Source: Brevibacillus sp. (GTDB lineage Bacteria; Bacillota; Bacilli; Brevibacillales; Brevibacillaceae). Taken from it: 64,000 nucleotides of DNA. The stretch is taken from positions 992,001 through 1,056,000 of the forward strand of contig JACDOF010000001.1 of NCBI GenBank assembly GCA_017656235.1. The letters run 5' to 3'. The notes beneath the pieces are model-generated. The model was not told where the DNA came from, did not search any database, and saw only the letters and a list, made by a program, of their open reading frames with translations. This document shows positions 14,127 to 58,036 of the stretch, piece by piece (within the stretch, counting starts at the first letter, position 1; each line of letters opens with the position of its first letter). Position numbers and translations under genes: made by a program.

Positions 14127-14164
14127 ACAGCAACCGAAGCACGCGGAACCCCAGGCCGCAGCCG

Positions 14165-14257
14165 GAGGGGACAAAGATCCTGCCCGTGCTGCTGCCTGGC
14201 CAGAAGCGATGCACGACTGCCCGCTGCGAATCGATCCCGAGGGCGAGGGCAAACCGG
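14165..14257. repeat. Partial copy of the dispersed inverted-repeat element (left arm)
   Basis: This stretch between spoIIAC and the spoVA promoter aligns by eye with 57579-57672. It shares blocks such as CTGCCCGCTGCGAA and GGGCGAGGGCAAACCGG and the order of the blocks between them. Only the left arm of the element is present, so the long hairpin cannot form. A 66-codon minus-strand frame across it has no family resemblance and is not called as a gene. Confidence 0.65.
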
Positions 14258-14267
14258 TTCCACCAAA

Positions 14268-37481: not shown

Positions 37482-37533
37482 CAAGCGGCGCCTGTCACGG
37501 ACAATGGGCACCCTTCCCGGACACTGATTTGTC
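37482..37533. repeat. Fragment of the dispersed inverted-repeat element (right arm)
   Basis: Aligned by eye with 57748-57800: it shares GTCACGGACAAT, CACCCTTCCC and a following TTGTC in the same order and spacing. Only this outer part of the right arm is present, between the DUF3866 gene and the peptidase terminator. Confidence 0.5.
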
Positions 37534-37540
37534 GCGGTAG

Positions 37541-37566
37541 AAAAAAAGCAGGGGTTTTTCCCCTGC
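37541..37566 (-). terminator. Terminator of the methylmalonyl-CoA operon
   Basis: Perfect 7-bp GCAGGGG/CCCCTGC stem (37548-37554 with 37560-37566) followed on the minus strand by seven T. Confidence 0.88.
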
Positions 37567-37568
37567 CC

Positions 37569-38696
37569 TTATTGACCGCTGTCCTCAAGCGACTCTTCCA
37601 CCAGCGCCAGAACCAGTTCCGCCGCTTTATACAGTTCTTCGAGCGGCATACGCTCGTTTGTGGTGTGAATATGCTCATAGCCAATGCCGAAGTTAACCGT
37701 GGGGATGCCAAACCCGTTAAACACGTTACCGTCGCTTCCGCCGCCCGAACTGTTCAGTTTCGGCTCACGGCCGATCCGCTTGACGGCGGCAATGGCCTTG
37801 GCGACGACCGGTGTGTTTTCGTCAAACTTAAACCCGTGGTACATGAACCTCACATCATTCTCGCAGCGAGCCCCCGCTTCTGCGGCAGCCGCTTCAAACG
37901 CCTCGGTCATCGCCTTGACTTGCGCTTCCAATTTTTCCATGACCAAACTGCGCGCTTCCGACCAGACTTCAGCATAATCGGAGACGATATTGTACGCTTT
38001 TCCGCCTTCAAAGCGGCCAATGTTGGCTGTCGTATCTGCGTCAATTCGGCCAAGCGGCATGCGGGAAATCGCTTTGCTGGCCACATTGATCGCACTGATC
38101 CCGTCTTCCGGATTGACGCCGGCATGAGCCGCCTTGCCGTAAATCTTGGTTACGATCCGATACTGACCGGCACCTGCCGCGATGATTTCGCCAACTTTTC
38201 CGTCGGAGTCCATGATGAAGCCCATCTCGGCTTTCAGAAGCGAACTGTCCATCGCCCTGGAGCCGACCAGACCCGATTCCTCACCAACAGTTATGACCAC
38301 TTGGATGGTGGGGTGAGGCAGGTTTTTTTCCTTGAGGGTCCGCATCGCTTCAAAGATGGCCGCGATCCCCGCCTTGTCGTCCGCACCGAGTATGGTTGTC
38401 CCGTCTGAATAAACGTAACCGTCTCGCACGGAAGGTTTGACTCCCTTTCCCGGGACAACGGTATCCATGTGGCTGCTGAACAGGATTGTCGGACCAGCGG
38501 CCGTTCCGGGAAGAGTAGCAATCAGGTTGTTGGCTTCGTGCCCCGTTTTGGCGGCAGCGTCGTCCTCTTCCACCGTAAATCCCATGTTGATCAGCTTTTC
38601 CTTGATCACCTTGGCGATCGCCGCTTCATGCTTTGTCTCACTGTCGATCTGGACCAGTTCCAGAAACTCCTCCAACAAGCGTTCTCGGTTAATCAA
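37569..38696 (-). CDS. M20 family metallopeptidase (PepT-like, YqjE-type)
   Basis: A 375-residue zinc aminopeptidase-like protein of the M20 family. Metal and catalytic motifs are SSHMDTVVPG (H76, D78), GADDKAG, and GEESG (catalytic E139 with E140), with the dimerisation domain between. The TTG at 38696 is seven bases after AGGAGG and gives the length of B. subtilis YqjE (about 371). It ends the operon with the carboxyltransferase, as yqjE follows yqjD. The actual substrate is not known; tripeptidase activity is only a family guess. Confidence 0.88.
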   Translation of the reverse strand: MINRERLLEEFLELVQIDSETKHEAAIAKVIKEKLINMGFTVEEDDAAAKTGHEANNLIATLPGTAAGPTILFSSHMDTVVPGKGVKPSVRDGYVYSDGTTILGADDKAGIAAIFEAMRTLKEKNLPHPTIQVVITVGEESGLVGSRAMDSSLLKAEMGFIMDSDGKVGEIIAAGAGQYRIVTKIYGKAAHAGVNPEDGISAINVASKAISRMPLGRIDADTTANIGRFEGGKAYNIVSDYAEVWSEARSLVMEKLEAQVKAMTEAFEAAAAEAGARCENDVRFMYHGFKFDENTPVVAKAIAAVKRIGREPKLNSSGGGSDGNVFNGFGIPTVNFGIGYEHIHTTNERMPLEELYKAAELVLALVEESLEDSGQ

Positions 38697-56301: not shown

Positions 56302-57462
56302 CTAATACATCATCATCGTCCACTGCTTCCAAATCATTTGGGCGACGTGGCGAGTGATGGGATTGACTGCCAGAATCGCACCGACCGGCACAAGCGCTGC
56401 CGCTGTAAACAGCAGCCAAGTGTTCCAGGAAACGCGCGGTTGATAAAGTTGACTTACCCCTTTGGCATCGATTAGACGCGGTCCGATTTTTGTCCGCACC
56501 AGGAGGGTACTGGCCATCCCTTTTCGTCCCTTTTCCAAAAAGTCGATCATGTTGGTGTGGGTGCCGATTGTGACAATCAACTCGGCCTGCTCTTCATAGG
56601 CCATCAGCATGGCCACGTCCTCGCTGGTTCCCGGCGCCGGCAGGATGTGATACGGCACCCCCAACTGCTCCATTCTTTCTCTGCCCGGAGCTCGTCCATC
56701 CGGGTAAGCGTGTACCACCACTTCCGCACCGCAGCGCAAGGCACGGTCGGTGACACTGTCCATGTCACCGATGATCACATCCGGCAGATAACCGGCTTCG
56801 ATCAGGGCATCAGCCCCTCCGTCGACGGCAATCAGCACGGGTCTGTATTCCTTGATATACGAGTAGAGCATCTGCAGGTCATCCCGGTAGTGCTTGCCGC
56901 GCACCACCACCACGACATGCCGGTTGGCCATCTTGACGGCAAGCCGCGGAATGGGAAGCGGCTTCAAAAAGAAATCCTTCTCAACCTGGGCGTATTGCAG
57001 CGTATTGTCGATAAACCGAGACAAGGTTTGATCCAGTCGAGCTTGTGCCTCCTGCCATTTTTCCTCGACGGCAGAAGGGGTTATCATTCTGAGCGGGACG
57101 ACCAGGGAACGACCGCCAGTCTGTATGTATAACTGATGGTTTACAATGGAAGCCGGGGTCTCATCGGGTAGCTGCATCAACTGATCGACATCGGCCTGAA
57201 CCACCTCATAAAGAGGAACGTCGGCGTCCAGCAGCCGCTTTGCACCGCAGGCCGGATAACTCCCGGTCATAAATGGTGCCGTGTTGATCACCGCTAGCAC
57301 GCGTGCCTCCAGCAAGGATTCGGCTGCAACCTCGTCGATGTCTTCATGGTGCAGCAGCACGATCCGGCCTGGTTGGATTCGCTTGCATAGCCGTTTGGTC
57401 TTATAGTCCGCGACCAGGCTCGCAGAGACCGAGCGGGAGCGGGTTTTCTTCTGTTTGTGCAA
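56302..57462 (-). CDS. steA: Putative cytokinetic ring protein SteA
   Basis: A 386-residue protein with a thiamine-pyrophosphokinase-like fold in the middle (VDGGADALIEAGYLPDV and IGDMDSV), a domain before it, and one C-terminal membrane segment (about 345-365). SteA was described in Corynebacterium as a division protein acting with SteB; the role in Bacillales is not settled. The TTG at 57462 is eight bases after GGAGG; a GTG five codons earlier is the alternative. First gene of a four-gene cluster with two glycosyltransferases. Confidence 0.83.
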   Translation of the reverse strand: MHKQKKTRSRSVSASLVADYKTKRLCKRIQPGRIVLLHHEDIDEVAAESLLEARVLAVINTAPFMTGSYPACGAKRLLDADVPLYEVVQADVDQLMQLPDETPASIVNHQLYIQTGGRSLVVPLRMITPSAVEEKWQEAQARLDQTLSRFIDNTLQYAQVEKDFFLKPLPIPRLAVKMANRHVVVVVRGKHYRDDLQMLYSYIKEYRPVLIAVDGGADALIEAGYLPDVIIGDMDSVTDRALRCGAEVVVHAYPDGRAPGRERMEQLGVPYHILPAPGTSEDVAMLMAYEEQAELIVTIGTHTNMIDFLEKGRKGMASTLLVRTKIGPRLIDAKGVSQLYQPRVSWNTWLLFTAAALVPVGAILAVNPITRHVAQMIWKQWTMMMY

Positions 57463-57528
57463 CACTCCCACCTCCACCCATAGTATGCCTCTTTTTATCC
57501 AGACTCATGCACCAAACCCTGAAAAACG

Positions 57529-57555
57529 AAAAAAAGGCTGTGCGTTTGCACAACC
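57529..57555 (-). terminator. Second (distal) terminator downstream of the DUF2759-like gene
   Basis: GGCTGTGC-GTTT-GCACAACC stem (57536-57543 with 57548-57555) with one wobble, followed on the minus strand by seven T. It is nearly identical to the terminator at 57809-57833. Confidence 0.8.
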
Positions 57556-57557
57556 CT

Positions 57558-57808
57558 CAGAATGGAGACAAAGTCCCGAAGGGACCAATCGTCCGACTCG
57601 CGCTGTTGCCTGACCAGCAATGATGCGCAACTGCCCGCTGCGAAACGATCCGTGGGGGCGAGGGCAAACCGGCTCAGCATCTCAGTGCAGCATCGAGTTG
57701 CCCTCGCTTTTCCCCACGTCCACGTTTCTTAAGCTCGGTTGGTCAGGCAAAGGCGCTCGTCACGGACAATCGCACCCTTCCCTTGGAAACAGGGTTGTCT
57801 GCAATCTG
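57558..57808. repeat. Long imperfect inverted-repeat element (about 250 bp)
   Basis: Nine nested pairs of arms in the right order form one long imperfect hairpin. Examples are 57606-57616 with 57740-57750 (11 perfect bases), 57658-57667 with 57698-57707 (10 bases), 57652-57657 with 57712-57717 and 57578-57583 with 57775-57780. The outermost are 57558-57561 with 57805-57808; the loop is 57668-57697. Parts recur at 14165-14257 and 37482-37533. It fills the 390-base gap between the small membrane gene and steA, together with two copies of one terminator. No convincing gene lies in it. Confidence 0.75.
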
Positions 57809-57833
57809 AAAAAGGCTGTGCGTTTGCACAGCC
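57809..57833 (-). terminator. Terminator after the DUF2759-like gene
   Basis: Perfect GGCTGTGC-GTTT-GCACAGCC stem (57814-57821 with 57826-57833) followed on the minus strand by five T. Confidence 0.85.
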
Positions 57834-57853
57834 CTTTCACGTCTGTTGCAGCA

Positions 57854-58036
57854 TTATAAACCGGCGTTCTTGATAAAGGCATAGTAGATAATCAAGGCAT
57901 CGGAGAACAGGAATACGAGCAGCGAAATGGTGCCAAACGCAACAGCAAACCTGTTTTTCGCCTTATACGAACGGTACACGCCGGCAGCGATGAAAATGGT
58001 GAACAAAAACATCAAGATGTCAAACAAGTTCATCAA
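57854..58036 (-). CDS. DUF2759-like small membrane protein
   Basis: A 60-residue protein with two hydrophobic segments (about 4-22 and 31-55) joined by a basic loop YRSYKAKNRF. The shape and the KN-F-A-AF stretch resemble the DUF2759 family (B. subtilis YqgW). Function unknown. AAAGGAG lies before a TTG-ATG pair, either of which could be the start. It has its own terminator. Confidence 0.65.
   Translation of the reverse strand: MMNLFDILMFLFTIFIAAGVYRSYKAKNRFAVAFGTISLLVFLFSDALIIYYAFIKNAGL

Follow-up and report, generated by a model that had tools for sequence, protein, structure and literature searches.

Introduction

IS1272 and TnSha1, two members of the IS1182 family found in staphylococci, insert into transcription terminators by deleting the stem-loop, and they leave no target duplication (PMC5678879, PMC4923244). 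Two alternatives have been proposed: if the 5' feet of the stem-loop are attacked, the whole hairpin would be duplicated (pathway b), and if the loop is attacked, the loop would be (pathway c) (PMC5678879). Here we analysed a 64,000-nucleotide window (G000:C1:992001-1056000) of a 3.6 Mb genome, G000, assembled as a 31-contig draft. A preliminary description of this window had pointed to an imperfect inverted repeat of about 250 bp with two partial copies elsewhere, read it as a dispersed, non-coding, MITE-like repeat or a family of structured RNAs, and recognised no named family in it. As checks it had suggested a whole-genome search for copies, a look for flanking duplications and a covariance model, all of which were carried out. 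We find that the repeat is very likely a non-autonomous IS1182-type transposable element that inserted in the rho-independent terminator of a DUF2759 gene and duplicated the whole hairpin; its identity as a mobile element is well supported.

Results

The inverted repeat holds up, and its boundaries are exact, with the first base of CAG at one limit and the last base of CTG at the other (Table 1). Its predicted fold reaches -135.8 kcal/mol as against -98.2 +/- 4.8 for shuffled sequences (z -7.8), and none of 200 shuffles did as well. The element is short, carries no transposase gene and has inverted 15-bp ends, the right one of which is identical at 14 of 15 bases to CAGATTGCAGACAAA, the left end of the IS1182 copies in the sister species G001. 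We assigned it to the IS1182 type because its terminal repeats resemble those of IS1182-family insertion sequences and because target and duplication are of the same type; what the element shares with IS1182 is limited to the 15-16 bp ends. Rfam searches of the window in gathering and permissive modes returned no family (best match 22.5 bits, gathering score 50).

Table 1 Features of the element, its surroundings and its partial copies in the window
Feature	Positions	Strand	Basis
Complete 251-bp non-autonomous IS1182-type element (MITE), family A	57558-57808	+	CAG...CTG ends, terminal inverted repeats, flanking hairpin duplication, 13 near-full genome copies
Left terminal repeat CAGAATGGAGACAAA	57558-57572	+	2 mismatches against CAGAYTGMAGACAAA
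Right terminal repeat, minus-strand reading CAGATTGCAGACAAC	57794-57808	-	1 mismatch against terminal consensus
157-nt conserved-structure hairpin core (models R1, R2)	57600-57756	+	R1 185.9 bits; covariation
Left target-site duplication copy, whole terminator hairpin AAAAAGGCTGTGCGTTTGCACAACCCT	57531-57557		26/27 identical to 57809-57835; minus strand scored terminator-like
Right target-site duplication copy AAAAAGGCTGTGCGTTTGCACAGCCCT, adjoining the DUF2759 gene whose terminator it is	57809-57835		Single copy at orthologous place in G001 and G002
DUF2759 gene, owner of the target terminator	57854-58036	-	Pfam PF10958; synteny
steA-like gene, opposite side of the insertion	56302-57477	-	NCBIfam NF040608, 500 bits
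Left-half family-A fragment, between sigF (spoIIAC) and the next gene	14162-14260	+	78% identity over 100 bp, E 4e-17
Right-arm family-A fragment	37487-37533	+	~80% over 49 bp, E 1e-4
Terminator hairpin AAAAAGCAGGGGTTTTTCCCCTGCCCTT, abutting the right end of fragment 37487-37533, at the end of the 37569-38723 gene	37543-37570		Sequence

The element is flanked by a 27-bp direct repeat, identical at 26 of 27 positions and absent from the preliminary description. In the sister species G001 and G002, a single GGCTGTGC...GCACARCC terminator stem lies between the same two genes, and in more distant members of the family DUF2759 and steA are also neighbours with a single hairpin in between. The one native terminator at the orthologous site of G001 and G002 therefore indicates that the element inserted there, copying the terminator whole; with one genome sampled per species, these empty sites are seen between species and not between strains. 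Stem-loop replacement in the manner of IS1272 and TnSha1, with the hairpin deleted and nothing duplicated, is ruled out, because the hairpin is duplicated here. The insertion was mild, since an intact terminator remains on each flank. A hairpin stands on at least one side of every well-preserved copy of the element, as it would if the flanking hairpins belonged to a larger repeat bringing its own terminators and were no target duplication. Yet the hairpin sequence is specific to each locus while matching across the element, and the window hairpin equals the one terminator that the orthologous gene natively has in both G001 and G002. Contradicted by these empty sites, the larger repeat is highly improbable.

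Dispersed copies complete the picture of a MITE, which is short, gene-less and bounded by inverted ends, with a target duplication and an empty site. A whole-genome search (E<=1e-8) placed family A, as we call it, at 41 sites, the window copy among them; 13 are near full length with 84-100% identity and about 28 are fragments. Both partial copies noticed earlier count among the fragments and were recovered with slightly different limits (left arm, previously 14165-14257; right arm, previously 37482-37533), and each does lie between genes. The hairpin beside the right-arm fragment is as expected if that copy likewise entered a terminator. Aligned copies share the ends CAGAYTGMAGACAAA...TTTGTCTGCAATCTG, and beyond them each has its own hairpin, often identical on both sides. 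The copies occupy unrelated loci in either orientation. Flanking duplications are clear at L003 (24/24, AGTATGTTCGGTTACGAACATTCT), L004 (19/20) and L008 (24/25), and weaker at L005 and L006. Flanking repeats scoring at least 8 were present at 6 of the 13 near-full copies versus none of 156 mismatched flank pairs. The other seven lack a scorable duplication and are mostly truncated at one end; the rest may have decayed or inserted in a different mode. The earlier reading as a dispersed, non-coding, MITE-like repeat is thus borne out by the IS1182-type ends, the terminator-hairpin duplications, the empty site in two sister species and the copies.

At the DNA level, family A is absent from two genomes of the same genus, and its DNA pattern had no match across 84,980 species in a search whose scope excluded near-identical records. 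Copies L008 and L009, on G000 contigs C4 and C7, look identical inside and have different flanking terminators, which suggests fairly recent movement, although the assembly yielded no transposase. The same ends also bound a second MITE family, B (G000 loci L033, L035, L038, L040, L043, L047, L050, L052 and L059); its copies reach ~540 bp, some hold two inverted cores, and L033, which shows a hairpin duplication, looks chimeric between B and A. The repeat CAGATTGAATACAAA, tried as another terminal repeat, was rejected as internal to a different repeat, and a viral-contig match (L116) in an apparent integrase coding region was taken as chance.

Searches of the 31-contig draft of G000 with PF13751, PF01609 and NF033551 found no intact IS1182 transposase, and contig C12 gave only degenerate or unrelated DDE transposase matches. 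Missing IS copies could sit in the gaps of the draft assembly, and a MITE does not require a cognate transposase in the same genome. One region of C12 (16.6-20.0 kb; L065 3102-6471) holds a broken transposase gene cluster together with an IS3-like gene and what seems to be a piece of a group II intron maturase; the CAG terminal repeat is on none of its genes.

The sister species G001 has 13 IS1182-family copies (L096-L107 and L112), mostly of 1.53-1.55 kb, with L112 spanning 2.76 kb. One end reads CAGATTGCAGACAAA or a near variant and the other CAGCCTGTAGACAAA or similar, and a G001 transposase scores 491.7 bits with the NCBIfam IS1182 model NF033551 (cutoff 270). Most of these copies are flanked by exact hairpin duplications, for example AAAAAGGGAAGCCGGGTCGGCTTCCCTTTTT (31 bp) and AGACGCCTTCGTAAGGCGTCT (21 bp). 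In L096 (1845-3500) the transposase frame has no stop inside the IS and continues through the terminal repeat into the flank (compare L097-L107); where the target duplication starts with A, a TGA stop can arise at the junction, TCTG|A.

Searching with the G001 transposase, we retrieved 80 loci in named Bacillota and paired terminal repeats 1.4-1.8 kb apart over all fetched loci. Among the 81 pairs tested, 38 IS1182-type elements were flanked by distinct repeats of 19-40 bp, each of them a whole hairpin; many of the remainder are false internal pairs of the same loci. When left and right flanks were taken from different elements as a control, a score of 8 was reached in 0.28%. The centre of the duplication fell within 0.5 base of the centre of the best local hairpin in 35 of 38 cases. 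Pairing was 88-100% within the duplication, dropped to 68% one pair beyond its edge and was under 50% at a distance of six to nine pairs; A and T tracts account for the surplus next to the edge. The outermost pair of the duplication was A...T in 31 of 40. An A/T tract (>=6 of 8) stood at the hairpin foot in 53% versus 4% of controls, as expected of terminators. Duplication length correlated weakly with the hairpin length given by a simple stem finder (Spearman 0.34), because the A/T tracts carry the computed stem beyond the cut site. The same hairpin duplications flanked 14 of 29 elements with the core in G001, G002, G007 and G011, versus none of 812 mismatched pairs.

The core of these elements reaches well beyond family A. 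A covariance model built from 57600-57756 and one diverged copy, whose E-values are rough, gave full-length matches in G011 (61), G000 and G007 (54 each), G002 (27), G009 (13), G001 (11), G008 (7) and G004 (4). A broader model detected the core in 19 of the 151 class genomes. These 19 belong to 13 genera and 7 families and usually hold many copies, often arranged as inverted pairs. In G001, G002, G007 and G011 it lies between IS1182-type ends and duplicated hairpins. G004 and G117 (another family) have it within an element with a different terminal repeat, GAGCCCTGCAAAAGTCC, and in G008, G009, G015, G016 and most other families its carriers are without IS1182-type ends; the core is therefore not solely an IS1182 passenger. 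It belongs to a large and apparently undescribed family of hairpin elements that is widespread in related bacteria.

Several carriers were inspected individually. Loci L273-L275 (G004) and L281 (G117) represent a second IS type with GAGyCCTGCAAAA ends, and in L274 and L275 the core precedes an IS1182-like transposase frame. The L274 insertion lies within the loop of a terminator and has a short repeat, GAGAA, which resembles pathway c, duplication of the loop; among the three sites of the G004 IS examined for terminator-loop duplication, one was clear. In G011, L256 (540-1401) contains three tandem cores with ~353-bp spacing and identical scores, which suggests a recent tandem duplication of one element. 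A 321-bp G011 element had no match in a search of plasmids.

The structure of the core is conserved. Across 96 distinct cores, aligned by fitting to the covariance model, the covariation score was 0.588 versus 0.183 for shuffled and at most 0.117 for slid alignments, with 1181 versus 382 double-change cells. A structure-free MAFFT alignment (25 sequences, 57% mean identity) analysed with RNAalifold gave compensatory changes in 16 of 20 pairs, single-sequence folds agreed in the central helices for most of 12 representatives, and an unpaired CCGCU was 97-99% conserved.

Such strong covariation and invariant unpaired motifs would suit a dispersed structured RNA, for instance a 3'-UTR or small RNA, that spread for a useful RNA fold with mobility as a secondary matter, and a transcript reading through the element would stop at the terminator copy beyond it. 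However, G-U pairs are expected to be favoured on one strand in an RNA helix but not in a DNA hairpin. In the long helices of the fitted alignment we counted 59 G-U and 74 A-C cells, in contrast to 27 and 4 in a SAM-riboswitch control from related genomes (Fisher p 1.5e-5, a value overstated by sequence relatedness); the unfitted core alignment gave 24 and 15. Since G-U is not clearly enriched, unlike in the SAM control, core pairing is probably kept at the level of DNA and not RNA. The missing Rfam match and the unrelated loci of the copies in both orientations also speak against an RNA origin, which is unlikely. Of the earlier suggestion of a structured-RNA family, the structure thus stands, conserved and covarying across seven families, while the low wobble count argues for DNA-level pairing. 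A hairpin that covaries across 13 genera with few wobble pairs cautions against equating strong covariation with structured RNA.

The core is probably an old conserved hairpin module whose DNA-level pairing would be kept by selection for a DNA hairpin or by copying of one arm onto the other. Taken as a purely neutral process, with intrastrand template switching in an imperfect palindrome keeping the arms of a functionless core complementary, such copying would account for the observed changes, almost all of which replace one Watson-Crick pair by another, with few intermediates changed on one side only. But the unpaired motifs CCGCU (97-99%), GCAAnGAAGC and CUCCGCUnGG are conserved between families while the stems change, and we disfavour the neutral process, which is doubtful though less so than an RNA origin, because it would not keep unpaired motifs. 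Tentatively, and with somewhat more doubt than trust, we propose that the core represents an undescribed, class-wide superfamily of long DNA-hairpin elements, with DNA-level covariation and an invariant unpaired motif, which rides on several kinds of mobile unit (IS1182-type MITEs, transposase-bearing IS1182-type IS and carriers with other ends), with a new protein moving it or recognising it in the form of a folded DNA strand.

Discussion

The flanking repeats are duplications, and they coincide with hairpins. We infer that the target had already folded at the time of attack and that the window MITE was mobilised in trans by an IS1182 transposase. An IS1182-family transposase acting in trans would recognise the terminator in extruded form, hairpin or cruciform, and would join the element to the 5' feet of the terminator stem on both strands. 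Gap repair would then copy the entire stem-loop, so that the length of the duplication would be set by the hairpin and not by a fixed stagger. The insertions look like pathway b in Fig 13 of PMC5678879.

Whole-hairpin duplication fits a proposed outcome of hairpin-directed IS1182 transposition, and in the literature that could be searched we found no paper reporting it for IS1182. ISfinder gives IS1182 duplications of 0 to ~60 bp and notes palindromic targets; hairpin duplication may thus be partly familiar to its curators. DDE transposases normally duplicate one fixed target length, whereas in dozens of natural insertions here a length of 19-40 bp follows the target hairpin. This points to a folded target, and it opens the structure-directed insertion model put forward for IS1272 to direct testing. 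Copying a terminator instead of breaking it also explains how such elements build up in intergenic DNA with little harm.

Among other known systems, REP/BIME palindromes are likewise dispersed hairpin repeats, often in inverted pairs and possibly active as DNA hairpins; REPs, however, measure 20-40 bp and carry GTAG or CGTC tags, whereas the core here has ~157 nt. Group IIC introns also use terminator hairpins as insertion sites, but they are retroelements with an intron RNA and duplicate no hairpin, and the window element contains nothing resembling group IIC intron content. In the Bacillus cereus group, bcr1 and the further bcr repeats are MITE-like and intergenic, with 147-167 bp, tens of copies and a conserved secondary structure (PMC2267715, PMC3446304). 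Compared by description, they differ in being confined to one species group and in having no described IS1182 ends or hairpin duplication (PMC2267715, PMC3446304). IS1272 and TnSha1 resemble the present element in the IS1182-family transposase, here putative, and in the choice of hairpin targets, mostly transcription terminators, with little sequence preference (PMC5678879, PMC4923244). They delete or replace the stem-loop, whereas the element described here duplicates it and has no transposase gene of its own.
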